This document shows, piece by piece, positions 31,339 to 63,463 of a DNA stretch of 64,000 nucleotides (position 1 is the stretch's first letter; every line of letters starts with the position of its first letter). The notes beneath the pieces are model-generated. The model searched no databases, was not told the origin of the DNA, and saw nothing but the letters and a program-made list of their open reading frames with translations. Source of the stretch: an uncultured Pseudomonadales bacterium. GTDB lineage: Bacteria > Pseudomonadota > Gammaproteobacteria > Pseudomonadales > Azotimanducaceae. The stretch spans positions 930,001 through 994,000 of the forward strand of contig OY282455.1 of NCBI GenBank assembly GCA_958296195.1, read 5' to 3'. The position numbers and the translations under genes were made by a program.

Positions 31339-32880
31339 CTATGAAGTAACGGGGACATTGCTGATGGGGATGGCGTTGCGGCCATCCGGCAGCGACCGGG
31401 CCCAGCGCTTGGGGCCTTCGTTGTGGACCGACTGGCCGGTGGCGTCCACCGCCACTGTCACCGGCATGTCCCGCACCTCGAATTCGTAGATGGCCTCCAT
31501 GCCGAGTTCCGGGAAGGCCAGCAGAGTCGATTTGGTGATGGCCTTGGACACCAGGTAGGCGGCGCCGCCCACCGCGATCAGGTAGGTGGCGCCGTGATCG
31601 CGGATGGCGGCGACGGCCTCCGGGCCGCGCTCGGCCTTGCCGATCGTGCCCAGCAGGCCAGTGCGCTCCAGCAAGGGGCGCGTGAACCTGTCCATGCGGG
31701 TGGCGGTGGTGGGGCCGGCCGGGCCAACCGCCTCGTCGCGCACCGCATCCACCGGGCCGACGTAGTAGATGAAGCGGTCCTTCAGATCCACCGGCAGGGG
31801 TTCGCCGGCTTCGAGCAGGTCGAGCAGCTTCTTGTGCGCGGCGTCCCGCCCGGTGAGCATACGGCCGGACAGCAGCAACGTGTCTCCGGCGCGCCACCTG
31901 GCCATTTCCGCACGAGTCAGGGCCTGCAGGTCCACCCGCCTGACGTCGTCGCCCAGCTCAAAGGCGATGTCCGGCCAGTCCCGCAAATCCGGCGGCTCAA
32001 AGCGGGCCGGGCCGCTGCCGTCCAAGGCGAAGCGCAGATGGCGGGTGGCGACGCAGTTGGGAATGACCGCCACCGGCTTGTTGGCGGCGTGGGTGGGGTA
32101 GCTCCTGACCTTGACGTCCAACACCGTGGTGAGGCCGCCGAGACCCTGGGCGCCTATGCCTAGGGCATTGACCCGCTCGAACAGCTCCAAGCGCAATGCC
32201 TCATCCCGGTTGGCGGGCCGCCGGCCTTGCAGTTCATGCATGTCGATGGGCGCCATCATGGCCTCCTTGGCCAGCAGCATGGCCTTCTCAGGAGTGCCGC
32301 CGACGCCAACGCCGAGAATCCCCGGCGGGCACCAGCCGGCCCCCATGCCGGGCACCACGGAGAGGATCCAATCCGCCACCGAGTCGCTGGGGTTGAGCAT
32401 GGCGAACCTAGCCTTGGCCTCGCTGCCGCCGCCCTTGGCCGCCACCTCAACGCCCAGCTTGTCACCCCGCACCATGCGGGTGTGGATGACCGCCGGGGTG
32501 TTGTCCTTGGTGTTGCTGCGGGCGCCGTCCGGGTCCGCCAGCACCGAGCCGCGCAAGGGGTTGTCCGCATCCAGGTAGCCTTGGCGGACCCCGGCGTTAA
32601 TCATCTCATCCACGCTGAGTTCCGCATCCCAGGACAGCTCCATGCCGACTTCCAGGAACACGTTGACGATGCCGGTGTCTTGGCAGATGGGCCGCTTGCC
32701 CAAGGCGCAAAGGCGCGAGTTGACCAAGATCTGCTGGAGCGCCGCCCGCGCCGCCGGGGACTGCTCCTTTTCGTACGCCGCCGCCATGGCGCGGATGAAG
32801 TCCGGCGGATGGTAGTAGGAAATGTACTGCAATGCGTCCGCGACGCTGGCGATGAGATCGTCCTGCTTGATGACCGCCAT
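31339..32880 (-). CDS. Class I (iron-sulfur) fumarate hydratase
   Basis: 513 aa. Interconverts fumarate and malate in the TCA cycle, using an oxygen-sensitive [4Fe-4S] cluster. The three cluster cysteines are visible at C66 (ICQDTG), C184 (GWCPPG) and C276 (PNCVA). The N-terminal alpha and C-terminal beta regions are fused, as in FumA/FumB. Other hallmarks are TKDNTPA, AKGGGSEAK, and the C-terminal PTTATRMD and KGGAA-like VGGAAYLVSKAI. The gene is monocistronic, or followed by the EthD-like gene. It marks the backbone boundary just before the CRISPR operon. Confidence 0.95.
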   Translation of the reverse strand: MAVIKQDDLIASVADALQYISYYHPPDFIRAMAAAYEKEQSPAARAALQQILVNSRLCALGKRPICQDTGIVNVFLEVGMELSWDAELSVDEMINAGVRQGYLDADNPLRGSVLADPDGARSNTKDNTPAVIHTRMVRGDKLGVEVAAKGGGSEAKARFAMLNPSDSVADWILSVVPGMGAGWCPPGILGVGVGGTPEKAMLLAKEAMMAPIDMHELQGRRPANRDEALRLELFERVNALGIGAQGLGGLTTVLDVKVRSYPTHAANKPVAVIPNCVATRHLRFALDGSGPARFEPPDLRDWPDIAFELGDDVRRVDLQALTRAEMARWRAGDTLLLSGRMLTGRDAAHKKLLDLLEAGEPLPVDLKDRFIYYVGPVDAVRDEAVGPAGPTTATRMDRFTRPLLERTGLLGTIGKAERGPEAVAAIRDHGATYLIAVGGAAYLVSKAITKSTLLAFPELGMEAIYEFEVRDMPVTVAVDATGQSVHNEGPKRWARSLPDGRNAIPISNVPVTS

Positions 32881-33073
32881 GGCTGCTGCCTCGCTGAATG
32901 TCGGAGCTTGGCATCATAACCTAGGGCGATTGGTGCCGGTGACGGCTATTCGGGCGCTTGAACGCCCCCAAGCCGGCGGCGGTCCCAAGCTAGCCACCAA
33001 AAACTACCTCTGTGGTATGGTGCCCAAGTCGTCTGACCGGGCGGCAAACCAAGGGGCGACGGGGGGCCCAAGC

Positions 33074-33265
33074 ATGGTTCAAGCGGAGGAATTTGAGCTC
33101 CATCGCAACTGCGAATCCCTCCGTTCGCAAAAGGCGCGACTGGGGTTTCTGGAAAAGCGACAGCTGTTCCGCTGCCACCACATCCAGCTATGCGACATCA
33201 GCCCAAACTGCCAAAACCTCTCCCCAGAGAAGTGGCGCCGCTTTTTGCACCAATCCAGGCCATGA
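33074..33265 (+). CDS. Small Cys/His-rich protein leading the CRISPR operon, 63 aa
   Basis: ATG 33074 opens a frame for 63 residues (MVQAEEFELHRNCESLRSQK ... FRCHHIQLCDISPNCQ), with an alternative in-frame ATG at 33017. Its TGA overlaps the cas3 ATG as ATGA (33262-33265), which supports both this small gene and the chosen cas3 start. The C-x-H-H-x4-C-x6-C spacing could bind a metal, but no family is recognised. It is not one of the standard type I-G genes. It might be a regulator, an accessory subunit or a translational leader. Confidence 0.45.
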   Translation: MVQAEEFELHRNCESLRSQKARLGFLEKRQLFRCHHIQLCDISPNCQNLSPEKWRRFLHQSRP

Positions 33266-36200
33266 GACTTCTAGACGAAAGCCAAGGGACAGCGGTTGGA
33301 TGTGCCCGCGGATTCGCGGAATTCTTTACTGCCCTGTGGGGCAACGAGCCCTTTGCATGGCAGAAGGACCTTGCTAGTCGAGTGCTTCAGCAAGAAGGCC
33401 TTGATGATGGGGAAGTGAAGGCGCCTTGGCCTGAAGCCATCGCCCTGCCGACGGCTGCTGGGAAGACCGCCTGCATGGACATCGCGGTGTTCGCTTTGGC
33501 GGCCCAGTCCGCCCGGCTGAACGCCGGCGAGGCCATGACTGCCCCTAGGCGCATATTTTTCGTGGTTGATCGGCGTGTCATCGTGGATGAAGCGCACAAC
33601 CGCGCCCAATGCTTGCGAGATAAGCTGCGTGAAGCACGGGGTGGCATTGTCAAGGAAGTTGCGGACAATCTTCGACTGATCGGCCATGGTGAGAACTGGC
33701 ATCCCTATGACGTGCCGTTATCGGTGCATGTGCTCCGCGGCGGCATGTACCGGTCCGAATCTTGGGTGCGCAATCCCTTGCAGCCCACCGTCGTAGCTTC
33801 CACCGTCGATCAACTAGGTTCCCGGCTGCTGTTTCGCGCCTATGGCCGCGGTCACCGCACATGGCCCATCTATGCCGGATTGGCGGCCAACGACAGCCTC
33901 ATCCTGCTCGATGAGGCGCACTGTGCACAGCCATTTCTTCAAACCCTTCAAGCGGTGCGCCGTTTCCGGAAATGGGCGCACGAACCGCTTGGTAGCTGCT
34001 TCCATCCCGTAGTGATGTCGGCCACGCCGCCGCTCGGCTTGGATGACGTGTTCAAAGACGTTTCCAAGGAAGGGCTTAATCCCGCTCATCCGCTAGGGAA
34101 GCGTCAGCTGGCTAAAAAGCCAGCGAAGTTGGTTTGTATCGGCGAGCCGATCATCAAGGCAAAAACCAAGGTTCAGACCAAGGATTTGGCGGGGCAGATA
34201 AACGAGAAGTTGGCCAAGGAAATGATCCAAGAGCTGGCCCGGTCTGCACGAGATCTGCTGGGGAATGACCGGCGGGCCATTGTCTTGTTTGTCAACCGGG
34301 TGGCGACAGCAAGGAGGGTTTTGGAGCAGCTAAGGGAAGGCGAAGAGGACATCCACACCGTTTTGCTCACTGGCCGAATGCGCGATGTGGACAAAGATGC
34401 CGCAGTCGATCGATTGAAGGGATTGGATCTGCACTCATCGAAGTCATCGGATCGCCATTTGGAAAAACCTGTTATCGTCGTTGCAACTCAGACCTTGGAA
34501 GTGGGGGCAGATTTGGATTTCGATGGCCTCGTCACGGAATGCGCCAGTCTTGATGCGCTCCGGCAGCGCTTTGGTCGCCTGAACCGCCTGGGGCGCTGCA
34601 TAGATGCCAGAGCCACTATTCTTGTTCGCGCCGACCAAGCCAAACCCAAGAAAGGCGACGTCGATGCGGTTTACGGCGAAGCGCTAGCCAAGACTTGGAA
34701 ATGGCTGAACGAGCGGAAAAATAGGAATGATGAAATTGACTTCGGAATCGCAGGCCTCGATAAGCACTTGCCGCAAGGAGATATGCTTTCAAAACTGAAT
34801 GCGCCGGCCCCCGACGCACCAGTCATGCTCCCCGCCCATGTCGATTGCTGGGCGCAAACTGAGCCGATACCGCAACCCTCGCCCGACATCGCACTGTTCC
34901 TGCATGGCCCGCAAGAAGGAGCGCCAGACGTGCGGGTATGTTGGCGCGCTGCTCTCGATTTGACGGGCGAAGACGGCCAAGATCAGGCCATCGAATCTCT
35001 GCGTCTATGCCCACCAAGCAGTGGTGAAACCCTCCCGGTGCCTGTTGGTCTGTTCAGGCGATGGCTGGCGGGGAAGGAGGAAGAGGACGACAGTCCTGAC
35101 CTGGAAGGGGTGGGCACAGCCGATCAGGCGGTGCAGGATTGCCGCAATGCTGCATATAGCGTTATCCGTTGGCGGGGCGCGGAAACGGATAGACAGGATG
35201 TTGTTTGGGACCCAAAGCAAATCCGGCCTGGCGAGCTGATGGTGATCCCGACACGACATCCCGGACGATTTGATCGGCTCGGCGACCTCCCTCCCGAAGC
35301 GTCTGAGTGCCGGGATGCTCTGGACGTAGGTGATCTAGCGCATCGCATCGCTCGGGCAAAACCGATCCTTCGCCTGCACCCAGCGCTTGTGGTTGCTTGG
35401 CCAGACGAGATTGCGGTGAAGAGCAAAGCGCACGATCTCTTGGGCGATGTGGGGCATCGGTTCGAGAGCGACCCCGATGAAATAGCCCATGAGGTGCGAG
35501 ATCTGCTGCTCGATCTTTCATCGGTCCAAGAATTGGATTCAAGCCGCTGGAATTGGTTGCCGCAGGCGGCTGCGGAACTCAAAAGCGAATTTTCCATCGC
35601 TCGGCTGCGCCGCGAATGCCGACTCGTGGGTACGGGTCTTATCTTGGTCGGACGCCGCCGCTTGCCCGAACTGGCCGGCAAAGCAGACAACTTCAGCGAC
35701 GAAGACGATGCAAGCGCATCTGGCATTTCACACCGCAAGGGGCGACCAGTGCTCCTTTTGGAGCACCTTCCTGGCGTCGAGGACTTCGCCCGCCGCCACG
35801 CCATTGGTTGCGGTCTCCCGGAAGATCAGGTGGAGGCCATTGCCCGTGCGGGACTGCTCCACGATATTGGCAAGGCAGATCCACGCTTTCAATCGCTGCT
35901 TCGCAACGGCGCATCACCGGGTGATCAACTATTCGCCAAATCTGCTCAAATGCCGAAAACTCGGGCAGCGTCTCGTCGTGCGTATGAGGCATCCGGGTAT
36001 CCGAAGGAGGGCCGTCACGAACTGCTGTCCGTGCGGTTGGCGGAGAGTTGCCCTTCGCTATTGCCAAGCGACCCTATCTTGCGCGATCTGGTGCTCCATT
36101 TGGTCGGCAGCCACCACGGCTACTGTCGGCCCTTCGCACCCGTGGTGACGGACGACGAAAACGAAAGCGTCAAGCTCGACTTGCGCGGCTGCCAAATGCA

Positions 36201-36366
36201 ATGGTCCGGGCCGACCGGCATGGAGCGCTTGGACTCAGGCGCCGCAGATCGCTACTGGCGCCTGGTTCGCCACTACGGATGGTGGGGACTGGCTTGGCTT
36301 GAAGCGCTTTTGCGACTGGCGGACTGGCGACGAAGCGAGTGGGAGGAGGCGCATGATGCCGGGTAG
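33262..36366 (+). CDS. cas3: Type I-G CRISPR helicase-nuclease Cas3 (C-terminal HD)
   Basis: 1034 aa. SF2 helicase followed by a C-terminal HD nuclease, the domain order typical of type I-G (formerly I-U) Cas3; other subtypes carry HD first. Motifs: LPTAAGKT near residues 62-69, LLDEAHC near 215, VVMSATPP, VNRVATARRVL, a motif V/VI block TQTLEVGADLDFDGLV and RQRFGRLNRLG. The HD part begins around 830 (LLLEHLPGVEDFA), has LLHDIGKADPRF near 863 and SHHGYCRPFAP near 948. It should be recruited by the target-bound Cascade and degrade DNA. All visible catalytic motifs are intact. The ATG overlaps a small upstream ORF, and the 3' end overlaps csb3 by 14 bases. Confidence 0.93.
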   Translation: MRLLDESQGTAVGCARGFAEFFTALWGNEPFAWQKDLASRVLQQEGLDDGEVKAPWPEAIALPTAAGKTACMDIAVFALAAQSARLNAGEAMTAPRRIFFVVDRRVIVDEAHNRAQCLRDKLREARGGIVKEVADNLRLIGHGENWHPYDVPLSVHVLRGGMYRSESWVRNPLQPTVVASTVDQLGSRLLFRAYGRGHRTWPIYAGLAANDSLILLDEAHCAQPFLQTLQAVRRFRKWAHEPLGSCFHPVVMSATPPLGLDDVFKDVSKEGLNPAHPLGKRQLAKKPAKLVCIGEPIIKAKTKVQTKDLAGQINEKLAKEMIQELARSARDLLGNDRRAIVLFVNRVATARRVLEQLREGEEDIHTVLLTGRMRDVDKDAAVDRLKGLDLHSSKSSDRHLEKPVIVVATQTLEVGADLDFDGLVTECASLDALRQRFGRLNRLGRCIDARATILVRADQAKPKKGDVDAVYGEALAKTWKWLNERKNRNDEIDFGIAGLDKHLPQGDMLSKLNAPAPDAPVMLPAHVDCWAQTEPIPQPSPDIALFLHGPQEGAPDVRVCWRAALDLTGEDGQDQAIESLRLCPPSSGETLPVPVGLFRRWLAGKEEEDDSPDLEGVGTADQAVQDCRNAAYSVIRWRGAETDRQDVVWDPKQIRPGELMVIPTRHPGRFDRLGDLPPEASECRDALDVGDLAHRIARAKPILRLHPALVVAWPDEIAVKSKAHDLLGDVGHRFESDPDEIAHEVRDLLLDLSSVQELDSSRWNWLPQAAAELKSEFSIARLRRECRLVGTGLILVGRRRLPELAGKADNFSDEDDASASGISHRKGRPVLLLEHLPGVEDFARRHAIGCGLPEDQVEAIARAGLLHDIGKADPRFQSLLRNGASPGDQLFAKSAQMPKTRAASRRAYEASGYPKEGRHELLSVRLAESCPSLLPSDPILRDLVLHLVGSHHGYCRPFAPVVTDDENESVKLDLRGCQMQWSGPTGMERLDSGAADRYWRLVRHYGWWGLAWLEALLRLADWRRSEWEEAHDAG

Positions 36367-37279
36367 AGATGGCGAAGCCTTGTTGTTGAGCGGGCTTGAT
36401 GGGAGCAATCCGCTGGGGTTCCTAGCGGCCATAGGTACTTTATGCGCCAGTGTTCAAGCCGATTCATCGAATAATTGGCGACTAAGCTGGCAAGTTCACG
36501 AAGGTATGTGGGTGCCCGTACTGGCGGGCAATGAGCCTTGGTCGGAGGAATGTCTGGCTAAACGACTCGCCAAGTCACTTTGCCGAGATTTAACTCCAGA
36601 GTTCGACTTCGCAGAGAATCTGAACGTCGAGCCCTGCCGATTCCGTGTTTTGGCCAACGAAGCCCAATGTCAGGCTACGCCCCAAGATCGACGGTTTGCG
36701 GACTTCATGGCTGCCTATGGATGCGATAGCTTAAAGACCAAAGACAAAAAGAGCATCCAAGATACCGCGCTGAGAACCATGAGTGGTCAAGGCCATCAGC
36801 ACTTCCTCGGAACCATGCAAAAGCTGACCAAAGAAACGGAAGAGAAACACCTACGCCAAGCCTTGTTCGAGTCATGGGAGTACTCTGACGAAAAGCTCGG
36901 GATGCGTTGGGATCCCCACGAAGACCGGAGATACGCCTTGCGTTGGGAAAAACCCTCCGGCTCTCCTACTAGGACCATGCGCGGCGCCAATCGTCTAGCT
37001 ATTGAGGCGCTGCCATTGCTTCCGTCGGTTCCCATCCAAAGCAGTCTTCGCACCACTGGGTTTCACATGGATGGCAAAAGGGCTCTGTATTTTACTTGGC
37101 CCATTTGGGAAGATGATTTGCGGGAGGATATTGTCCGGTCACTGCTTGCCTTGTCTGAGTTGCAAAAGCCAACCCCGAACCGCAGTCATCTGCGTGATAT
37201 GGGGATCGTCGAGGTTTATGGAAGTCAGCGCATCTCTGTCGATCGGTATCGAAATTTCCTCCACGCTTCGCCTGCTTGA
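36353..37279 (+). CDS. csb3: Type I-G Cascade subunit Csb3 (Cas8-like)
   Basis: 308 aa from ATG 36353, chosen because GGGAGGAGG precedes it by a few bases. The N-terminal LLLSGLDGSNPLGFLAAIGT is the hallmark segment of the Csx17/Csb3 group, proposed large-subunit (Cas8) equivalents of type I-G. The small size fits Csb3 and not the longer Csx17. The rest is poorly conserved, with RTMSGQGHQHFLGTM in the middle and a C-terminal GIVEVYGSQRISVDRYRNF. It overlaps cas3 by 14 bases and is followed by csb1 after 23 bases, so it is in the same operon. The assignment rests mainly on the N-terminal motif and context. Confidence 0.8.
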   Translation: MMPGRDGEALLLSGLDGSNPLGFLAAIGTLCASVQADSSNNWRLSWQVHEGMWVPVLAGNEPWSEECLAKRLAKSLCRDLTPEFDFAENLNVEPCRFRVLANEAQCQATPQDRRFADFMAAYGCDSLKTKDKKSIQDTALRTMSGQGHQHFLGTMQKLTKETEEKHLRQALFESWEYSDEKLGMRWDPHEDRRYALRWEKPSGSPTRTMRGANRLAIEALPLLPSVPIQSSLRTTGFHMDGKRALYFTWPIWEDDLREDIVRSLLALSELQKPTPNRSHLRDMGIVEVYGSQRISVDRYRNFLHASPA

Positions 37280-37302
37280 ATTACTTGAACACAGGAGACA
37301 AA

Positions 37303-38651
<1,349 letters not shown>

Positions 38652-38652
<1 letters not shown>

Positions 38653-40958
38653 TGTTCGCCTTGGGGCTTCGCTATCTGAACGGCTGGTCAATGGCGGCAG
38701 CCGATGGAGCGAGGAAGGAGCAGGCCGAGTGGCCGCCCCATCCCGACCGGGTGTTCATGGCTTTGGCTGCCGCATGGTTCGAGACCGATGAGGACGAGCA
38801 CGAGGGTGAGGCGCTTCGTTGGTTGGAAACCTTGCCGCCGCCGGCCATATTCGCTTCCGATTCTTGCAATCGAACTGTCGCAACTAGCTATGTTCCCGTA
38901 AATGACAATGCGAGCCCTCTATCAAAAAAACAGAAGCCGCCAAAAAAACAGAAGCCGCTGCAAGAGGGGTATCTGCCAATTGGCCGTGGCCGCCAGCCGC
39001 GCAGCTTTCCGGTTGCAATACCCCGTAGCCCAAATATGTACTTGATTTGGCCGGAATGTGAACTAGGGGGTCATCGCGTTCCGTTGGAGCGTCTAGCGGC
39101 AAAGGTTACCCATGTGGGCCACTCGGCCTCTTTCGTGCAAGCCTGGGTAGATGAAGGTGACGATCTCAAGGCGAATTGGGAACCTACCCAAGGTGTCGCC
39201 GCCCTCCGTCTGCGTGTTCCCTCCCTAGGCCGTCTTGAGCGATTAGCGCAACCTTTTCGCACGGCATGGGCCGAATACACAGCAATGACGCCGCCACCGC
39301 GTATGCCTTGGCGCCAGTTTCCAGACGCCGTGTTGCTTGCCAATGAGACTGAAACCAAACAACATGTAGATTTCACAGCGGCCAAAAACGGCGATTTGGT
39401 GGCTGCTGCAAACTTGGTCTATGCCTTGACGAATGATATGGGCATTTCGGCGGTACGCAGGTTGGTGGACGGCAGTGACGCTGAGGCTGGGGTCCCCGCG
39501 CTGGTCAGTGTGCATGCCCACGAGGGCGGAAGCGTCAATGCCATACCGGCCGCCTTGGCGGAATTGCTAAGCGAGCGACTGGGCATTGAATACAACGACA
39601 CAGTCGTTCAAACGAATTTGGTATGCCACACCGGTGCTGACGGCTATGGACGTCTTGCTCGCCAAGCCCGCTTTGAAGGCGCAGTTGAAAGGGGACGCAC
39701 ATACCTGATGGTGGACGACTTCATCGGTCAAGGCGGCACCTTGGCGAACCTACGCGGTTGGATCGAAACACAGGGCGGAAGGGTTGGCGGAGCAGTCGCA
39801 TTGACTGGCAAGCCCTATTCCGCGATATTGACCCCCTCCAAGGAGCAACTCCATGAACTCAGGCAAAAGCACGGGAAAGACTTCGAAAAGTGGTGGCGAG
39901 AGCATTTCGGTCACGCCTTCGACTGCCTTACTCAATCGGAAGCTCGGTACCTCACCCGTTCCCCGGATGTTGACACCATCCGAGATCGACTTGCTGAGGC
40001 GGAGCGCACGGGAGATAGCAGAAGGTGTCCGCAAGGAGCTAGCGAACAAAGAGCTAGCGAACAAAGGAAGCGCATCAAGAAACTGAGAGATTGGAAGCCG
40101 GCGACACCTAGGCGGCCAGTCCCCAACCGATGGCAGGGTTACGTTCGAGTGGATGCGGAAGTCTCGCAAAACACCACTTCCAATCTGGCTTTGAGCTCCC
40201 TATTTGATTCCCGCATGGTCGTCCTCGGCATTCAAGGCAAGCGCGTGTCTTTGCCGGCCACGCTCAAGCTCACCGCGGCCCTGCGCGGTCTGTTGATGCG
40301 CGAATGTCCGCAGCAACCGCCGCCGGAGTGGTTCAGCGGCCACCGTCAGGACGGGCAGCCGACTTTGCAACCCCATCTGGCGCTGGCGCCGCTGCCCTTT
40401 GTCGGTGCCGAGCATGCGGATGGGCGGATCATGGGCTTGGCTTTGGTGTTGCCCAAAAGGTTGGACAAGGCGGAGATCGGAAGCTGCCTCGACCCCATCC
40501 TCCACGACCTAGAGACTGGACGTCCAAGTTCGCACCGATTGTTCAGCGGGGAAGGGATCGAGTGCCAAGTCGAGCTTGATGCCCACGAACGTCCCCCAAG
40601 AAATCTTGCCCCCGATACTTGGACGAGGGCGTCCCGCATTTGGGCCAGCGTGACGCCGGTGGTTATGAACCGGCACTTTGACGGGAAGGACAGATGGCAG
40701 CGGGCCGCGGAGAGCGTGGAGGATGCCTGCCAGCATATCGGCCTCCCCCGTCCGAACGAGGTCCTGCTGCATCCGGTCTCCTTGGTCGAAGGCGCACCCC
40801 ATGCCAGGGACTTTCCGCAACTGACTCGAAAACGCGATGGCGGCCGGCAGAGTCATAGCCATGCGGTGCTCATCTTTGACGAGCCAGTGCGCGGCCCGAT
40901 GCTGTTGGGTGCCGGGCGTTTCCGCGGCTATGGATTGTGCCGGCCGACCGGGCATTGA
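38652..40958 (+). CDS. csb2: Type I-G Csb2 (Cas5-Cas6) with an inserted phosphoribosyltransferase-like domain
   Basis: 768 aa, clearly longer than usual Csb2 (about 450-550). Residues 1-203 are the Cas5-like part (FALGLRYLNGW, WPPHPDRVFMALAAAW). Residues 486-768 continue Csb2 with PVPNRWQGYVRV, LTAALRGLLMREC, PHLALAPLPFVGAEHADGR, VTPVVMNRH, PHARDFP and the Cas6-like Gly-rich end LLGAGRFRGYGLCRP. Between them, about residues 204-485 form a complete PRTase-like domain: an entry resembling the N-terminus of free-standing enzymes (MPWRQFPDAVLLANETE at 218), VSVHAHEGG near 285, VVQTN and HTGADG near 320-330, and the PRPP-loop signature YLMVDDFIGQGGT (351-363). The frame is intact. Short tandem repeats at 38924-38958 and 40037-40066 flank parts of it. 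The csb1 stop and this start overlap. Confidence 0.88.
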
Positions 40959-52234: not shown

Positions 52235-52684
52235 TCACCCAAAGATCCTAAGACCGACCATGGCCGCCAACAGCCCGGTTCCCATCAGCCAAAAGTGCCG
52301 GTAGAGGCCACCCCTAAGATCGGCGACAACGCCCTTCAGGTCGGCGACAGCGCCCTTCAGCTCAGCAACGTCGCCTTTCACTGCGGCGATGTCCGCTTTC
52401 ACTGCAGCAACGTCGCCTTTCACTTCGGCGATGTCCGCCTTCACTGCGGCAACGTCACCTTTCACTGCGGCAACGTCGCCTTTCACTTCGGCGATGTCCG
52501 CCTTCACTGCGGCAACGTCACCTTTCACTGCGGCAACGTCGCCTTTCACTTCGGCGATGTCCGCCTTGGTCGCCAAAATTTCGATGGGTGGAACCGCTTG
52601 CGCCGCAGCGCTGGCCACATCCTCCTCCGTGCCAACGCTTTTGAACGCCTCGTAGATTTCCTTGACCATGATGGTGCTTTTCAT
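52235..52684 (-). CDS. Coiled-coil repeat protein with C-terminal membrane anchor
   Basis: 149 aa from ATG 52684 (MKSTIMVKEIYEAFKSVG). The middle is a series of 7-residue units of the type KADIAEV / KGDVAAV (about 15 units), followed by a hydrophobic C-terminal helix (LMGTGLLAAMVGLRIF). This architecture resembles DUF1640-type coiled-coil membrane proteins, here with an unusually regular heptad. The DNA is a 63-bp tandem repeat, so copy number probably varies between strains. It sits between recX and alaS but has no evident link to recombination. Confidence 0.75.
   Translation of the reverse strand: MKSTIMVKEIYEAFKSVGTEEDVASAAAQAVPPIEILATKADIAEVKGDVAAVKGDVAAVKADIAEVKGDVAAVKGDVAAVKADIAEVKGDVAAVKADIAAVKGDVAELKGAVADLKGVVADLRGGLYRHFWLMGTGLLAAMVGLRIFG
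52390..52565. repeat. 63-bp tandem repeat inside the coiled-coil gene
   Basis: The block GTCGCCTTTCACTTCGGCGA and following bases recur with a period of 63 bases (three 7-residue coiled-coil units), about 2.8 copies, almost without substitutions, indicating recent expansion. Confidence 0.85.
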
Positions 52685-57909: not shown

Positions 57910-58494
57910 TTGAACTTGGTCGAAAAAATCTTCGCCCTGCATGACAGTTTGCAAACGGCGGGCCTGCCCCACGCTTTCGGCGGTGCGCTGGCGTTGGCTT
58001 GGTGCGTACGTCAGGCTCGTGGCACCATCGACATTGACGTAAACGTTTTCGTTGAAGCTGACCCGACTGGAGCGCAAGCCTTGGTGGCTGCATTGCCTAG
58101 CGGCGTTCAAGTCGGCACCAAGGACATGCGGGCGCTAAACAAGGAGGGCCAAGCTAGGTTGTCGTGGCAAGGCACGTCCATCGACGTATTCCTCAGCACC
58201 ACGGACATCCATGCCGGGGCCGCTAAGTGTACTAGCTGGGAGACGTTCGCCGGCCGCCGCCTGCCGTTCCTCTCGTGCTTTTACGTCGCGGTGTTCAAAG
58301 CCTTCTTCAACCGCACGAAGGATTGGGCCGACCTTGAAGCCATGCGTGACGCAGGCACCCTCGACATAGACGCCGTTAAGGCGGTCCTAGTTCATTATCT
58401 AGGCGAACCAGATGAGCGCACTGACCGGCTGATGTTGCTGAATGAGGCGCAGCCATCAAGGAGCTGCTTGATAAAACCTACTACATCGGCCTGA
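57910..58494 (+). CDS. Nucleotidyltransferase-like protein (AbiEii/DUF6036-like), probable toxin
   Basis: 194 aa. The N-terminal segment FGGALALAWCVRQARGTIDI followed by DVNVFVE matches the G-G/S ... R-x-T-x-D-I-D core of nucleotidyltransferases of the AbiEii group, with metal-binding Asp residues in the TIDIDV motif. GT-type toxins of this group transfer nucleotides to tRNA or proteins. It pairs with the XRE gene upstream. Its last about 12 residues overlap a fragment of another toxin gene on the opposite strand (from 58448), so the natural C-terminus may have been replaced at a recombination junction. Confidence 0.75.
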   Translation: MNLVEKIFALHDSLQTAGLPHAFGGALALAWCVRQARGTIDIDVNVFVEADPTGAQALVAALPSGVQVGTKDMRALNKEGQARLSWQGTSIDVFLSTTDIHAGAAKCTSWETFAGRRLPFLSCFYVAVFKAFFNRTKDWADLEAMRDAGTLDIDAVKAVLVHYLGEPDERTDRLMLLNEAQPSRSCLIKPTTSA

Positions 58495-58590
58495 ATGTCG
58501 TCGTCGGGCGCACCCTTGATGAGCGTTGCCACCCGGTGAGGGCCAAGGCTGTCGCGATTAAGGAAATCCTCCGTCAAGATGCGCAGCGCC
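58448..58590 (-). pseudogene. C-terminal fragment of an AbiEii-type toxin gene
   Basis: The translated fragment (ALRILTEDFLNRDSLGPHRV, then DDDIQADVVGFIKQLLDGCA) matches the last about 50 residues of the intact toxin at 61260-62099 with few differences. The rest of the gene is missing. It belongs to the decayed duplicate of the AbiE module. Confidence 0.85.
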
Positions 58591-58606
58591 TTCCTTTTCC
58601 GTTTTT

Positions 58607-58632
58607 CATTTGGATTCTCCAATTCGTTTTGT
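58607..58632. repeat. Direct repeat bounding the LRAT cassette, copy 1
   Basis: CATTTGGATTCTCCAATTCG TTTTGT recurs at 59446-59471 with one change. The pair delimits an 840-base segment carrying the LRAT-like and 73-residue genes. Confidence 0.8.
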
Positions 58633-58657
58633 CGTGGACGCTAGGCTTGCGCAAGAG

Positions 58658-59209
58658 TCAATCGACTACGCTTCCCCGCTTCTCGAATGCCCAAGGCCGC
58701 CAATAGTCATAGCCTAGGCTTTCTTTTGCGATTTTCGCTAACGCCAAGAGAGTGAAAACGCCAATTCCCGAAAAAAGATACTTATCGGGTCGAAAATCGC
58801 CCGTCAGACATCCGGAAGTGAACATGTGGCAGTTGTTGTTTCGCACGTTGTACCCATGTTGATGATAGATCATGCCAGCCCTATGCAGCGCTCGCTCGGC
58901 CGCCTTCGGGCTGCCGACGGGAGACTTGCCTTTGCAGGAGACATACACGGTTTTGCCCTTATCCATTCCGGTCGTAAAATGCTCCGGGCTTCCTTTCTTA
59001 AACTCTCCACTTCTCGAAAGCCAAACTATGGAGCCTTCCCCAACGTAGATGCCGGAATGCTCGGCAACCTTCAGAAGATCACAAAACACAACGCTACCCA
59101 CATGGGGCTCGTCAACCGGATGGCTCTCCCGTATTTTCAGAAGCACTCTTATGAGCTTGCGAGCGACAAACGGGAACGCCAATAATACTATTCGCCAAAC
59201 ATTTAGCAC
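58658..59209 (-). CDS. LRAT/NlpC-P60-like (permuted papain fold) protein
   Basis: 183 aa. An N-terminal hydrophobic segment (VWRIVLLAFPFVARKLIRVL) may be a membrane anchor. The catalytic pattern of the LRAT/H-rev107 branch follows: His in AEHSGIYVGEGSIVWLSR and Cys in NNNCHMFTSGCLTG, with the stretch between of usual length. Such enzymes are acyltransferases or lipid hydrolases; bacterial members are uncharacterised. It shares a cassette with a 73-residue gene, bounded by direct repeats, inserted in the decayed AbiE copy. The C-terminus has another hydrophobic helix. Confidence 0.75.
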   Translation of the reverse strand: MLNVWRIVLLAFPFVARKLIRVLLKIRESHPVDEPHVGSVVFCDLLKVAEHSGIYVGEGSIVWLSRSGEFKKGSPEHFTTGMDKGKTVYVSCKGKSPVGSPKAAERALHRAGMIYHQHGYNVRNNNCHMFTSGCLTGDFRPDKYLFSGIGVFTLLALAKIAKESLGYDYWRPWAFEKRGSVVD

Positions 59210-59226
59210 ATCACCCTCCCTTTATA

Positions 59227-59448
59227 TCAGCGCAAAGGCGGTTTCGTTCCAGCCGCATCATGGGCCTTCAATTCCGCCAAGGAGGGAAATTGCGTAGTTG
59301 CAGGCATGTTAAGCGCATATTCCATTCCACGCCTGAAATGTTCTACCAAAAGCAATTGCATTTCACCTTCGGAAGCGTCGGGGTACTCCTTCCGAAAGCG
59401 TTGTTCAACACTCCGAAAATGTCTTTGGATTTCGTTTCCTTCGCTCAT
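59227..59448 (-). CDS. Small hypothetical protein, 73 aa
   Basis: A helical, charged protein (MSEGNEIQRHFRSVEQRFRK ... MQLLLVEHFRRGMEYAL) with no recognised domain. It starts within the direct repeat at 59446-59471 and lies 17 bases upstream of the LRAT-like gene on the same strand, so the two are probably co-expressed. Confidence 0.6.
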   Translation of the reverse strand: MSEGNEIQRHFRSVEQRFRKEYPDASEGEMQLLLVEHFRRGMEYALNMPATTQFPSLAELKAHDAAGTKPPLR

Positions 59449-59471
59449 TTGGATTCTCTAATTCGTTTTGT
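59446..59471. repeat. Direct repeat bounding the LRAT cassette, copy 2
   Basis: CATTTGGATTCTCTAATTCG TTTTGT; see copy at 58607-58632. The start codon of the 73-residue gene is the first three bases. Confidence 0.8.
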
Positions 59472-60054
59472 GGTAGGGCTGGCTCGTCAGCAGCATGACG
59501 CCCCGTTTGACATGCTGTGCCCACCGGCTCCATTGCCGGTGCGTGAAGCGTTCGGTTGAATGCATGAGCAGCCACCTGGCGATGCGAGAGCTCTTTGGCG
59601 CGAACGCCGAAGCCGGCCGACCGCGCCGTTTGTATTTATTAGGTTTGCCGTCCATCAGGATTTTGAGCCCCTGGGCATAGATCCGTGCGTTGCCCGAAAG
59701 GTCCAGCTATCCAACGTCTCGCTCCGCGCAGAGCCGGCGGCCGATCTCACCTATAAACGGCGTCACTACCAACGGGACAATTACGGAACCGAGGGGAAGG
59801 GCAGCCACACCATCATCGTGGCGGTTTCTTTCCATTTCCGCGACGCAGCGGCGAACCTGTTCGAGAGCCGTGGCAACCAATCCCGGCGACCCATCACTTT
59901 TCCACTCCACCACGAAGAGGAAGGGGCCCGCCTGCAGCAGGGCATCCACCGAGCTGCCCGGCTGCAAAGGGAGTTTTTGGCAGCCCGTGTCAGTCAGTTT
60001 GGCAAGACGCTCGATGGTCTCGCAGATCGGTTCTTGTTCGGTGGGTGCTTTCAT
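59458..60054 (-). pseudogene. Decayed copy of the AbiEi-type antitoxin gene
   Basis: It matches the intact antitoxin (62092-63180) from MKAPTEQE through CAERDVG, where the Trp codon has become a TAG stop (near 59707). The same frame then resumes (LDLSGNARIYAQGLKI) through RFTHRQ, after which unrelated sequence begins at the LRAT-cassette junction. Nonsense mutation plus truncation make it non-functional. Confidence 0.9.
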
Positions 60055-60075
60055 CGATTGATGTGTGTAACAGGG

Positions 60076-60093
60076 TTTGACCAATCGGTCAAG
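60076..60093. promoter_or_regulatory. Decayed AbiE-type operator (duplicate copy)
   Basis: TTTGACC-AATC-GGTCAAG, the counterpart of the perfect palindrome at 63201-63218, with one arm base changed. Confidence 0.5.
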
Positions 60094-60147
60094 CTGAGTT
60101 TTTTAGTCAATTCCCTTCGCCCATGAGGCTAACGCCCTTTCTCGATT

Positions 60148-60357
60148 TCATTGATGACCACCACCGTCGTGTGCGGTGCCAACGCCTCGCGGATCAACCC
60201 TAGATTCTGGGAAAGCCGCACAAAAAGGCTTGGTCGTGCAGGCTGTATGTCGGAAAATCGCCCAATTGCCGCCGGACCGGTGCTGATTGGTGTTGGAGTT
60301 GTCGATCATCAAGACGACATTGGCGGCGAAGGTGTCCATTTGAGCCAAAAATCGGTG
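60148..60357 (-). pseudogene. C-terminal fragment of an unknown gene, duplicate copy
   Basis: The frame HHRFLAQMDTFAANVVLMID followed by NSNTNQH matches 63254-63463 but is shifted after TTKPF by one extra A in an A-run near 60217. The style resembles the C-terminus of zeta-toxin-like kinases, a weak guess. It is part of the segmental duplication. Confidence 0.4.
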
Positions 60358-61113
60358 ATGCGCTTGCCCCGCATGGAAACCGCTTGCTTGGACGACATCG
60401 GCGGGCGCGAAGATCAGCAGGATCGTGTGCAGGTTATCGAAGGCGGCGGCGGTGCTCAACTGCTGGTCCTCGCCGACGGCATGGGCGGCCATGAGGGTGG
60501 CGCTTTGGCGGCGCAAGCGGTCATTGATGCGGCGTCTGATGAGTTCCAAACGCTTGGTGGCGCCCTAGCTAGCGACCCCGCCGGCCTGTTGGCCCGCGTG
60601 GTGGCCGGTGCCCATGAGCGCATCAACGCCTTGGGCGCCGAACGGGGCTTGAACCCGCACAGCACCTGTGTGCTGCTCTACATCGACCCCGTTGCCACCG
60701 CTTGGGCGCACGTTGGGGACAGCCGCTTGCACCGCTTCGCCGATGGCCACCTTGCCGAGCGCACGATTGACCATTCCATCGTCGAGTTGATGCGCCTGCA
60801 AGGTCGAATCACTGAGGAGGAGATGAAAACCCATCCCGACAAGAACCGGCTGTACGAGGCCCTTGGCGGCGAGCAGCCGCCGCAAGCTGAGATCAGCGGC
60901 AAGGAGAGTGCGGTTGGGGACGGCTTCCTGCTGGCCAGTGACGGCGTCTGGGAGAACGTGGCGGACGCCGACTTGGAAGCCGTGCTCCAAGCGGAGGACC
61001 TTGCCGAAGCGCTGCGGCACCTGATCGAACATGCCAAGGCACATGGCGGGCCGAAGTGCGACAACCTGTCCGCCGCCGCGGCCCGCCGTCGTGGGGGTGC
61101 AGGACTTCTTTGA
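60358..61113 (+). CDS. PP2C-family serine/threonine phosphatase
   Basis: 251 aa from ATG 60358; the frame is open further upstream, but that part lies in a duplicated segment read on the other strand. PP2C motifs: GREDQQDRV (in place of the usual NEDA-type motif), LVLADGMGGHEGGALAA, HVGDSRLHRF, LLASDGVWENV and a final CDNLSA. These hold the metal-binding aspartates. It probably dephosphorylates proteins in partnership with a serine/threonine kinase; only a small fragment of such a kinase remains just downstream. No membrane segment is visible. Confidence 0.85.
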   Translation: MRLPRMETACLDDIGGREDQQDRVQVIEGGGGAQLLVLADGMGGHEGGALAAQAVIDAASDEFQTLGGALASDPAGLLARVVAGAHERINALGAERGLNPHSTCVLLYIDPVATAWAHVGDSRLHRFADGHLAERTIDHSIVELMRLQGRITEEEMKTHPDKNRLYEALGGEQPPQAEISGKESAVGDGFLLASDGVWENVADADLEAVLQAEDLAEALRHLIEHAKAHGGPKCDNLSAAAARRRGGAGLL

Positions 61114-61165
61114 GGCTAACAACACAGCCTACATTATGATGGAATACGGGGAAGGCACCTCCCGT
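61088..61165 (+). pseudogene. Remnant of a serine/threonine protein kinase gene
   Basis: In another frame overlapping the end of the phosphatase gene, VVGVQDFFEANNTAYIMMEY plus GEGTS is a clear piece of a eukaryotic-type kinase N-lobe and hinge. Nothing of the kinase remains on either side, so most of the gene was deleted. Confidence 0.6.
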
Positions 61166-61259
61166 CAGCCTATGGCCTTAACTTTCGTTCCATTCGCCGC
61201 GCTGGCTGCGGCGAAGCAGGAGTAGCAAGGGCCGGCGTATTGGTTCTCGTAGCGCACAA

Positions 61260-62099
61260 TTAGGCGCAGCCATCAAGGAGCTGCTTGATAAAACCTACTA
61301 CATCGGCTTGAATGTCGTCGTCGGGCGCATCCTTGATGAACGCTGCCACCCGGCGCGGGCCAAGGCTGTCGCGGTCAAGGAAGTCCTCCGTCAAGATGCG
61401 CAACGCCTTCCTTGCTTGGAAATCCTCTAGCAGTGGCTTCAGTCGGGAAGTTACATCGGCAGGGCTGCTTCCGTAGTGTTTCACGACGTAGTACAGGTCG
61501 TATGCGTCCTTGTTCTCACCACGGTCTCGAAACGCAAGAGCCTTCAGAACGACGTAAGCACCTGGCCCACAAACCCATATCGACCTAGTTGCCTGTTCCC
61601 CGGCAATGGTTCTGCCTGAAATACTGACTGCCTCACGATCTTGGAAAGCAAGATGCAGGCCCGGCGTAATGATTGCTGCAAAGTCCGATTCGATGTTGCG
61701 CAGCCTGCCGCCCTCATCGTCCGGCAGGCTTGGCTGGATAAGAAAATCCACGGGTACCTTGTGTCGCCCGCTAGTTCGCCAACGTTGGCGGGTTGGATTG
61801 TTTTGGTCATTGAAATCCGGCACGAACTGGGCGCGGCGCAGCCGCTCGGTGAGGGTTTGGTAGCGATCGCCATCCAGCATTGCCAAGCCAAGGCCGATGT
61901 CAAGATCTCTGGTCCCCGCATGGGAGGCTTCCGCCGACGAAGGGTCCCGCTCAATCAGCAGCGTTGGGACCAGACCGCCGACCACGACCAAATAGTCCAT
62001 CAGGTCGCCGAGTTTGGTGGCGACGTAAAGGCAGGTTTCCCGCACGAGGTCGGTGTAGCCGCCTGCATAGCCCTCGGCTGTGGTCGGTTTGCTAGTCAT
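61260..62099 (-). CDS. AbiEii-type nucleotidyltransferase toxin
   Basis: 279 aa from ATG 62099, overlapping the upstream antitoxin stop by 8 bases. It shows the nucleotidyltransferase pattern VVVGGLVPTLL followed after about 20 residues by TRDLDIGLGL, with the metal-binding Asp pair, and a helical C-terminal half. This fits type IV toxin-antitoxin toxins of the AbiEii family, although the chain is a little shorter than classical AbiEii. The pair is transcribed on the minus strand. A fragment of a paralogue survives at 58448-58590. Confidence 0.8.
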   Translation of the reverse strand: MTSKPTTAEGYAGGYTDLVRETCLYVATKLGDLMDYLVVVGGLVPTLLIERDPSSAEASHAGTRDLDIGLGLAMLDGDRYQTLTERLRRAQFVPDFNDQNNPTRQRWRTSGRHKVPVDFLIQPSLPDDEGGRLRNIESDFAAIITPGLHLAFQDREAVSISGRTIAGEQATRSIWVCGPGAYVVLKALAFRDRGENKDAYDLYYVVKHYGSSPADVTSRLKPLLEDFQARKALRILTEDFLDRDSLGPRRVAAFIKDAPDDDIQADVVGFIKQLLDGCA

Positions 62100-63180
62100 C
62101 GGTGTGCCATCGCAGATATTCGCTCCTGAGTTCCTGGGCAACGTCTTTGGCCCTTTCAGGATGCGCGTGAAGATCAAGATAGATCTGGACCGGATGAACG
62201 CAACGAATGCCGTTGTGGGTCGCGGCACCGTGAAACACGCCCGCGTCGTTTGGGGCGATGAACCAGACATTGGCGCCGCGGTCGTCCTCATGGAATGACA
62301 TTTCCGCGAGCAGGTCGGGGGAAATGGGCTGCTGGTGGTAGAGGCTGACGATTCGAAAGCCAGCGAAGTGGTTCAAGCTCCAAGCCGCTGCAAGGCCGGT
62401 GGCCGCGCAGGGGATGGAGGCTCTTTCCAGGTCCCTGCTCAACTGCCACAGCAGCGCTTCTCCGGAACGCGCCGGGATGTGCCCACGCAAGAAGCCGTGC
62501 TTTCTGAATTTGTAGTCATTGAGCCAAGCGTCAAGCAGCAGATTCGGGTCTGGGGCGCGAATGCGCAGTTCGTTGTCCCGGACGATCAGCCCGTCCTCCT
62601 CGAGTTTGCCGACTAGGCGGCTGGCGTGGCCTTCATCCATGCCGATGGCTTGGGCCACTTGGCGCTGCGTGAAGCATTCGGCTGGATGCATGAGCAGCCA
62701 CCTGGCGATGCGGGAGCTCTTCGGCGCAAACGCCGAAGCCGGCCGCCCAAGCCGTTTGTATTTGTTGGGCTTGCCGTCTATCAGGATTTTGAGCCCTTGC
62801 GCATAGATCCGTGCGTTGCCCGAAAGGTCCAGCCATCCAACGTCTCGCTCTGCGCAGAGCCGGCGGCCGGCCTCACCCATAAACGGCGTCACCACCAAAG
62901 GAACAATTATGGAACCGAAGGGAAGGGCAGCCACATCATCAGCATGGCGACTTCTTTCAATTTCCGCGACGAAGCGGCGAACCTGATCAAGAGCCGTGGT
63001 GACCAATCTCGGCGACCCATAACTTTTCCACTCCACCACGAAGAGGAAGGGGCCGGCCTGCAACAGGGCATCCACTGAGCTGCCCCGCCGCAAAGGGAGT
63101 TTTTGGCAGCCCGTGTCAGTCAGTTGGGCAAGACGCTCGATGGTCTCGCAGATCGCTTCTTGTTCGGTAGGTGCTTTCAT
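62092..63180 (-). CDS. AbiEi-type antitoxin/regulator with winged helix
   Basis: 362 aa. Residues 1-130 look like a restriction-endonuclease-like fold (DALLQAGPFLFVVEWKSYGS). A winged helix follows near 165-210 (FTQRQVAQAIGMDEGHASRL, then GKLEEDGLIV), and a C-terminal domain of about 150 residues is similar to other AbiEi-group proteins. The antitoxin precedes the toxin and overlaps it by 8 bases. A perfect palindrome (63201-63218) lies 21 bases upstream, the expected autoregulatory site. Whether the nuclease-like domain is active is unknown. Confidence 0.75.
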   Translation of the reverse strand: MKAPTEQEAICETIERLAQLTDTGCQKLPLRRGSSVDALLQAGPFLFVVEWKSYGSPRLVTTALDQVRRFVAEIERSRHADDVAALPFGSIIVPLVVTPFMGEAGRRLCAERDVGWLDLSGNARIYAQGLKILIDGKPNKYKRLGRPASAFAPKSSRIARWLLMHPAECFTQRQVAQAIGMDEGHASRLVGKLEEDGLIVRDNELRIRAPDPNLLLDAWLNDYKFRKHGFLRGHIPARSGEALLWQLSRDLERASIPCAATGLAAAWSLNHFAGFRIVSLYHQQPISPDLLAEMSFHEDDRGANVWFIAPNDAGVFHGAATHNGIRCVHPVQIYLDLHAHPERAKDVAQELRSEYLRWHTDD

Positions 63181-63200
63181 TGGTTGAATAAATAACAGGG

Positions 63201-63218
63201 TTTGACCAATCGGTCAAA
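63201..63218. promoter_or_regulatory. Palindromic operator of the AbiE-type module
   Basis: TTTGACC-AATC-GGTCAAA, perfect 7-base arms, 21 bases before the antitoxin start. AbiEi antitoxins are known to autoregulate through inverted repeats. Confidence 0.6.
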
Positions 63219-63253
63219 CTGAGTTTTTTAGTCAATTCCCTTCGCCCAAGAGA

Positions 63254-63463
63254 CTAACGCCCTTTCTGGATTTCATTGATGACCACCACCGTCTTGTGCG
63301 GCGCCAACGCCTCGCGGATCAACCCCAGATTCCGGGAAAGCCGCACAAAAGGCTTGGTCGTACAGGCTGTACGTTGGAAAATCGTCCAATTGCCGCCGGA
63401 CTGGTGCTGATTGGTGTTGGAGTTGTCAATCATCAAGACAAAATTAGCGGCGAAGGTGTCCAT
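63254..63463 (-). pseudogene. C-terminal fragment of an unknown gene
   Basis: 69 residues (MDTFAANFVLMIDNSNTNQH ... TTKPFVRLSRNLGLIREALA ... INEIQKGR) that look like the end of a longer protein; sequence upstream of the first Met is unrelated. A frameshifted duplicate is at 60148-60357. Possibly a zeta-toxin-like kinase C-terminus, weakly supported. From 63470 to 63790 I see no gene. Confidence 0.4.

Follow-up and report, generated by a model that had tools for sequence, protein, structure and literature searches.

The window analysed here, a 64-kb stretch at positions 930001-994000 of a single contig of 4.31 Mb (genome G000), carries a type I-G CRISPR operon with csb2 as its last gene. Almost certainly, a complete phosphoribosyltransferase (PRTase) domain of type I stands between the Cas5-like and Cas6-like parts of this Csb2, at about residues 212-452. 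The open reading frame (ORF) at 38652-40958 on the plus strand is uninterrupted from ATG to stop and encodes 768 amino acids (aa). The operon genes and the parts of csb2 are listed below; identities among fusions refer to the three fused proteins described further on.

33190-36366 (+): cas3g, helicase-nuclease of 1058 aa (TIGR02621, E 1.7e-214; DEAH at 241 and SAT at 277 present)
36299-37279 (+): Cas3-adjacent, Cas8g-type subunit, ORF of 326 aa with uncertain true start (NF049934, the 'type I-G Cas3-extension family', E 4.1e-77; PADLOC Cas8g, E 1.7e-90)
37276-38652 (+): csb1 (Cas7g), backbone subunit, start codon uncertain (PF09617, E 1.1e-52; TIGR02570, E 3e-19)
38652-40958 (+): csb2 with PRTase insert (Cas5-like, PRTase, Cas6-like), 768 aa (TIGR02165, PADLOC, homology to plasmid PRTases)
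38652-39245 (+): Cas5-like part, residues 1-198 (about 49-53% identity to the unfused Csb2 of G058 and Methylomagnum)
39246-39284 (+): linker at the first junction, residues 199-211 (little conserved, with 29-48% identity among fusions as measured on 199-212)
39285-40007 (+): inserted type I PRTase domain, residues 212-452 (KfrC homology, solo PRTases, AlphaFold2, Foldseek)
39513-39548 (+): residues 288-299 (HAHEGGSVNAIP), likely the pyrophosphate-loop region (A289, E291, N296 and P299 invariant in 28 unfused relatives)
39711-39740 (+): phosphoribosyl pyrophosphate (PRPP) motif VDDFIGQGGT, residues 354-363 (D355, D356, G361, G362 and T363 invariant in the same 28 relatives)
40008-40118 (+): second linker, residues 453-489 (34-52% among fusions)
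40119-40955 (+): Cas6-like part, residues 490-768 (TIGR02165 match, alignment)

The 768-aa product matched the NCBIfam Csb2 profile TIGR02165 over its full length at 293.9 bits (cut-off 45). The match was split into two stretches, the better of which aligned ORF residues 455-765 with profile positions 175-491. The PADLOC profile Cas56g matched as well (E 2.4e-118). The presence of cas3g, a Cas8g-type subunit, csb1 and csb2 in one operon identifies it as a type I-G effector operon. The same operon content, and a Csb2 with a Cas5-like half and a C-terminal Cas6 half, are described for T. sulfidiphilus (PMC9638904), but the Csb2 of the window has a complete PRTase in the linker between the two. 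H737 is likely the counterpart of the catalytic H503 of T. sulfidiphilus Csb2, the sequence of which lay outside the alignment. From the alignment, this Cas6-like histidine is proposed as the predicted residue for cleavage of CRISPR RNA (crRNA).

As the Pfam and NCBIfam profile matches of the insert were below threshold, the homology evidence was taken from tblastn searches and from the fold. PF00156 reached only 11.4 bits (cut-off 26.3, E 0.2), and all nine phage members of the same family that were tested likewise remained under this threshold, at 15.9-23.5 bits. The APRT- and OPRT-type NCBIfam models NF002634 and NF001729 gave 13.4 bits (cut-off 170) and 12.6 bits (cut-off 245). With tblastn, residues 217-469 matched plasmid phosphoribosyltransferase and KfrC genes at 38-40% identity, with E values from 9e-37 to 1e-39 among the matches listed. 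The AlphaFold2 model of the insert, built from 30 sequences, had a predicted local distance difference test score (pLDDT) of 84.8 and a predicted template modelling score (pTM) of 0.85. All 35 Foldseek matches in the PDB with E values up to 0.001 were PRTase folds, among them H. pylori ComF (2.7e-5), OPRT, APRT, XPRT, PurR and PRPP synthetase, with ShosT bound to PRPP-Mg at rank 6 (2.8e-4). The template modelling scores on the query were modest (0.23-0.40 for the best 50 matches). The full-length model was poor (mean pLDDT 60.9, pTM 0.46), with most of the PRTase block at 80-95, and was not used for domain placement. The model, Foldseek and the alignment agree on a PRTase fold with catalytic-type DD and GGT. 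The initial annotation had described a 768-residue Csb2 with an in-frame PRTase between its two parts; the TIGR02165 match, the homology and the fold bear this out, and the Foldseek search that it had suggested returned PRTase folds.

Several more specific assignments were rejected. A classical purine or pyrimidine PRTase (APRT, OPRT) was discarded because no curated-family match reached its cut-off. The NCBIfam XopC effector family, with a cut-off of 1000 bits, gave 11.8 bits with the fusion and 24.5 and 20.4 bits with two solo PRTases. A sequence search of the PDB, which gave an rRNA methyltransferase as best match (E 0.026-0.027) followed by APRT (0.052-0.054), was not used. The insert is also not KfrC proper, since the Csb2 linker and the Cas6 part come next and the neighbours are cas genes and a dipeptidase instead of kfrA. 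The closest matches were those of the MuF/KfrC/polyvalent group, with the APRT and OPRT families far below cut-off; the PRTase tree took in that group alone. The base composition did not set the insert apart.

The borders of the insert were determined by alignment with the closest unfused Csb2 proteins, those of genome G058 and of a Methylomagnum plasmid (52% identity each, alignment A3). The G058 protein (L056) aligned to residues 1-209 and 483-765 with 28 residues of its own in between, and the Methylomagnum protein aligned to residues 1-198 and from 464 with 19 of its own. A solo PRTase aligned to fusion residues 195-451. Because of these borders the PRTase was placed at about 212-452 with a linker on either side. 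The initial annotation had correctly set an insert between the two halves, while its borders of 204-485 are refined to this domain plus the linkers. By these alignments the domain was inserted into the linker that joins the Cas5-like half to the Cas6-like half. T. sulfidiphilus Csb2 is reported to have been split in its linker, at R260, with the halves expressed separately (PMC9638904). A Csb2 of 571 aa on a viral contig (L133) had an unbroken linker at the insertion point and no PRTase within its 10 kb. In the csb2 of the Methylomagnum plasmid (L027 8001-9580), a frame change was observed near the 3' end, and the conserved C-terminus continues in another frame.

Two further intact fusions were found, one in another genome of the genus, G002 (61% identity), and one in G949, of a different genus of the same family (62%). 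The three fusions comprise 768, 793 and 790 aa, carry the insert at the identical place and share 61-64% identity overall. The positions of VDDFIGQGGT (354-363), HAHEGG (288-293) and MPWRQF (218-223) in the initial annotation were right, but two of the meanings attached to them did not hold. HAHEGG, regarded as part of the PRTase signature, reads HAYERD and SAYERG in the other fusions, and A289 and E291 alone are invariant. MPWRQF, regarded as a former start, reads AVWKDF and VPWGGF; the methionine shared by all three fusions is M212.

In the Csb2 tree, calculated with the insert columns dropped, the fusions formed a clade (support 99/99) within a five-row clade of the fusions, G058 and Methylomagnum (99/97). 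Seven of 15 frames were removed by a frame filter and are absent from this tree (G909, G957, G960, G806, G967, G947 and G817). After a rebuild without the badly chosen frames G950, G954 and G949c the values were 99/99 and 99/97, with a long-branch warning on other rows. In the PRTase tree, which included 26 of 56 viral loci, the fused PRTases and one remnant formed a clade (99/97) beside two solo proteins; the remnant, from G964, filled 33% of the columns. The single clade of all three fusions points to one insertion event, and the fusion probably arose once.

Between the fusions, the PRTase (63-69% identity) was as well conserved as the Cas5-like part (62-67%) and the Cas6-like part (67-71%), whereas identity in the two linkers was 29-52%. 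The ratio of nonsynonymous to synonymous substitutions (dN/dS, Nei-Gojobori) of the PRTase was 0.13-0.17 in 3 of 3 pairs, a rough estimate with synonymous sites near saturation. For the Cas parts it was 0.10-0.18 in four of six comparisons, the other two, both of the Cas5-like part, being saturated. At 22 positions invariant in the 28 unfused PRTase relatives, the fusions kept 64 of 66 cells (window 21, G002 22, G949 21), and both aspartates and the GGT were retained in all three. These comparisons indicate that the PRTase has been retained with its active-site residues since the insertion and is under purifying selection.

The fusions occurred in 2 of 9 genomes of the genus and in at least 3 of the 26 TIGR02165-positive genomes among 206 of the family. 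The contig scan used two narrow patterns and gave three loci, so that further fusions may have been missed. TIGR02165 was positive in 8 of 398 genomes sampled from the phylum, 4 of 390 from the order and 22 of 369 from the class, the genome of the window being counted each time. Apart from that genome, none of the matches listed from these samples had an insert-sized gap in one long frame; long contiguous Csb2 frames elsewhere (e.g., 840 aa in G511) were judged by profile match. In the class sample, Csb2 was present in 3 of 8 PRTase-positive genomes and in 18 of 360 others (p 0.007, kinship ignored), with the window's genome left out and both scans taken as the same 369 genomes. This co-occurrence was given little weight because one of the three, G649, was a 37-residue match that was absent from a repeat scan. 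In a metagenome-assembled genome of the K189A clade (L039 1-584), a changed PRTase lies at the edge of its contig; the upstream part is cut off there, and the tail resembles the one of the G002 fusion.

Relatives of the insert outside CRISPR loci were found mainly on mobile elements. The insert alone, used as query, matched 169 of 72,556 plasmid records (E 1e-5) and 2 of 50,697 phage records (E 1e-3). A search of IMG/VR with the broader alignment A2 gave 56 loci encoding relatives, whereas the two-fusion alignment, the patterns of which are narrow, detected none on viral contigs. Frames were obtained for 55 of the 56 loci; 31 were of 447-658 aa, 16 of 2348-3878 aa and 8 of other sizes. Eight proteins of the head type were tested, and Pfam Mu-F was above cut-off in four, absent in three and just below cut-off in that of phage Mcat8 (29.4 compared with 29.6 bits), where the PRTase gene stands after the terminase and portal genes. 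One giant PRTase protein tested contained LPD38, a 'large polyvalent protein associated domain'. The nearest relatives in the tree were two solo PRTases with 53-59% identity to the insert, one of 237 aa from Undibacterium pigrum (53%) and one from G614, of the same class (59%). Solo, MuF-joined and giant LPD38-containing relatives fit the group of Iyer et al. 2017 (PMC5512222), in which PRTases of invasive elements stand alone, are fused to MuF or belong to polyvalent proteins, in a role called 'somewhat enigmatic'. In that account such proteins are mostly encoded by invasive elements, whereas the PRTase of the window lies inside a CRISPR complex.

Among the plasmid proteins, KfrC of IncU and IncP plasmids shares the DD..GGT motif and the N-terminal boundary of the insert. 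It differs in having its own C-terminal part and partners, and in DDT in place of DDF. The KfrC-type protein of the IncU plasmid pFBAOT6, read from the start MTEHKA as in the primer of PMC8124265, has 38% identity to the insert over 234 residues and DDT at 141-143. According to PMC8124265, KfrC of RA3 in excess slows the growth of E. coli, no stable clones of residues 1-249 by themselves were obtained under tac, and replacement of DDT 141-143 by AAA abolishes the growth inhibition. PRTases are also effectors in anti-phage systems. According to a review, the phosphoribosyl transferase and pyrophosphatase ShosT (PDB 8zvc) upsets purine metabolism in an anti-phage toxin-antitoxin system (PMC12593503), and a PRTase effector is given as typical of type III retrons (PMC12548924). 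In these two accounts neither PRTase is described as joined to a CRISPR complex. ShosT is distant from the insert (11% in the Foldseek alignment); no ShosT-like antitoxin was recognised among the operon genes scanned, and the resemblance is one of fold only. The retron PRTases were likened to the insert by description and not by sequence. No report of a Csb2-PRTase fusion was found in the open-licence PMC literature, in line with the view of the initial annotation that none had been described.

Decayed pieces of the PRTase were present beside other type I-G genes, at L015 365-631, L017 2766-2906, L153 17956-18195 and L175 9775-9939, and with a Csb2 remnant at L155 9132-9724. They follow csb2 in the Csx17-type operons of G002:C344 and G964:C160, and also in G007:C73, a contig that starts at csb1 and the csb2 of which is 80% identical to that of G002:C344. 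In G952 the decayed PRTase was located between an array and cas4-cas1, and in G636 upstream of a cas3-like gene. The G964 remnant extends to Csb2 residue 533, which points to a former fusion. G001 contained 91 bp like the 3' end of the window's csb2 between two ORFs (L059 9676-9766, 86% over 22 aa), and in G614 part of a csb1 like that of the window (64% over 55 aa) lay next to cas3 of another I-G operon. Fused operons thus appear to have been replaced repeatedly by other I-G operons. In several other I-G operons, Csb2 frames of about 730-870 aa contained a second Cas6-like C-terminal copy, with profile positions of about 250-490 matched again (L012 7763-9967, corresponding to G000:C1:1574762-1576966, L013, L057, L138 and L140). 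The second Csb2 of the window's own genome is 98% identical to one of these.

A fumarate hydratase gene is located upstream of the operon and an M19 dipeptidase gene downstream; an ORF at 32822-33265 had no family match. Unlike the I-G locus described for T. sulfidiphilus (PMC9638904), the operon had no cas4-cas1 or array beside it and is in this respect not a complete I-G locus. The search for cas4-cas1, which did not include cas2, covered the window, G002:C96 (35.8 kb) and G949:C101 (22.2 kb) and was negative. CRISPR arrays with at least three exact repeats were likewise absent from these three contig stretches, with the exception of a 21-nt tandem repeat at 52.3 kb; the finder requires exact 18- to 20-mers, so that degenerate arrays could escape it. 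The negative results for G949:C101 say little, as this contig ends 0.8 kb past csb2. G949 has arrays elsewhere in its genome. The genome of the window contains another I-G operon; it is accompanied by Cas4-Cas1 and by a large array from 1560851 onward (G000:C1), the repeat pairs of which gave 119 matches on one strand and 14 on the other (1868433-1871928). The crRNA for the fused Csb2 could come from this other locus.

The window operon abuts a block of the M19 and CoA-transferase genes. This block stands without the operon in three of four relatives examined, and in the fourth the M19 gene alone was found. In G002, the M19 block and the fused operon are on different contigs. The G002 fusion contig carries Septu PtuA/PtuB and type I restriction-modification genes 8-14 kb from the fused csb2, and the G949 contig has GajB-like and PifA-like genes upstream of cas3. 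In Undibacterium pigrum (L040 9986-14272) the solo PRTase gene is followed by a PDC-M23B/HamB-like helicase gene and has, as judged by eye, a gyrB-like ORF just upstream.

The homology, the two trees, the linker placement and the absence of the domain from the closest unfused Csb2 support the proposal of the initial annotation that a subunit of a type I-G Cascade captured a PRTase of the mobile-element type. The further suggestion of that annotation, that the insert adds an activity to Cascade, is plausible, because active-site residues appear to be under purifying selection and because the growth inhibition by the plasmid homologue depends on DDT; the activity may be that of an effector, of a nucleotide- or RNA-modifying enzyme or of a PRPP sensor. 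An intact PRTase is retained in at least three species, which suggests that it serves the immune system as an additional weapon or a switch. The action of type I Cascades is generally attributed to Cas3. Inside the crRNA-processing subunit, a mobile-element type of catalytic domain under selection in three species could provide a second output.

We tentatively favour the view that the insert may be a catalytic second effector in Cascade which acts on PRPP or nucleotides, the whole chain of steps being a serious possibility short of an expectation. The PRTase would hang from Cascade at the crRNA 3' end, the place of Csb2. The trigger would be target engagement by Cascade, or its high-level assembly during infection. 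The PRTase would then consume PRPP, the PRPP or nucleotide pool would be disturbed and the cell or the invader slowed, while the Cas5 and Cas6 halves would keep their usual functions in crRNA processing and Cascade assembly. This view is based on the DDT-dependent toxicity described for KfrC and on the PRTase effectors described for ShosT and type III retrons. The retained active-site residues and the defence genes on the contigs of the other two fusions also speak for it. In a bolder form, RNA-guided recognition would activate the captured PRTase as a built-in metabolic weapon that drains or alters the PRPP or nucleotide pool, so that abortive infection joins DNA destruction in a single particle; this form is possible but doubtful.

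Several points weigh against an effector. Control of the PRTase by target recognition is the weakest link in the chain, and we know of no route by which such recognition would be relayed to Csb2. The effector activity of the insert is itself predicted, as is crRNA use by the fused operons, with neither array nor cas4-cas1 found near those of the window and G002. The fusions are rare. Of the 66 otherwise invariant cells, the window has lost one (Y241F) and G949 another (T427A). The nearest recognised neighbours of the operon are fumarase, LptG, M19 dipeptidase and CoA-transferase genes, with no defence gene among the genes scanned. In PMC9638904, Csb2 is reported as not visible in the I-G cryo-electron microscopy map. 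The toxicity of KfrC is described for over-production only (PMC8124265). Phage and plasmid members of the family presumably serve the element, in a role called enigmatic (PMC5512222).

The main rival is a sensor or switch, in which the PRTase would bind PRPP or nucleotides and allosterically gate crRNA processing or Cascade assembly by metabolic state; we consider it rather unlikely. In PurR and PyrR the PRTase fold serves regulation. PurR was among the Foldseek matches, PyrR is also cited in PMC5512222, nucleotide production or sensing is proposed there for the family, and the insert lies between two working domains. The long and variable linkers are unfavourable for allostery, and DD and GGT were kept in all three fusions, although binding alone could keep them.

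Alternatively, the operon would belong to mobile DNA, with Cascade merely the carrier of a PRTase that acts in establishment or exclusion of rivals like those of KfrC and polyvalent proteins. Insert relatives are common on plasmids and viral contigs, and of the two closest unfused Csb2 proteins that of Methylomagnum is plasmid-borne. The operon and the M19 block are together in the window and apart in G002, so that the site of the fused operon differs between these two species of the genus. Yet no direct sign of an element was seen around the three operons, where integrases, transfer genes and borders were not searched for, and this alternative is improbable.

It is quite improbable that the domain is a tolerated passenger, kept without cost in a flexible linker because it folds. 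Linker insertions can be tolerated and few genomes carry the fusion (at least 3 of the 26 positive genomes of 206), but the dN/dS values are like those of the Cas parts, the active-site residues were retained through about 35% divergence, and pieces of the same PRTase have decayed elsewhere. The production of a PRTase-Cas6 species from an internal start at M212, beside full-length Csb2, is very unlikely. M212 is common to the three fusions and near the start of the solo gene, but no correctly spaced Shine-Dalgarno sequence was seen there by eye in any of them, and MPWRQF is not conserved. An assembly or sequencing chimera, which the initial annotation had asked to be checked, can practically be dismissed because two intact orthologues in other genomes carry the insert at the same place, with 61-64% overall identity, and G000 is a single contig.

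As the PRTase is fused here to a complex whose composition and trigger are known, the substrate and purpose of the enigmatic PRTases of phage heads and plasmids (PMC5512222) become testable.

Two repeat structures were observed elsewhere in the window. The 21-nt tandem repeat mentioned above occupies 52279-52609 in eleven registers. Several stretches within 58441-63463 are repeated 2.8-3.1 kb further on with 89-95% identity, likely by local duplication.

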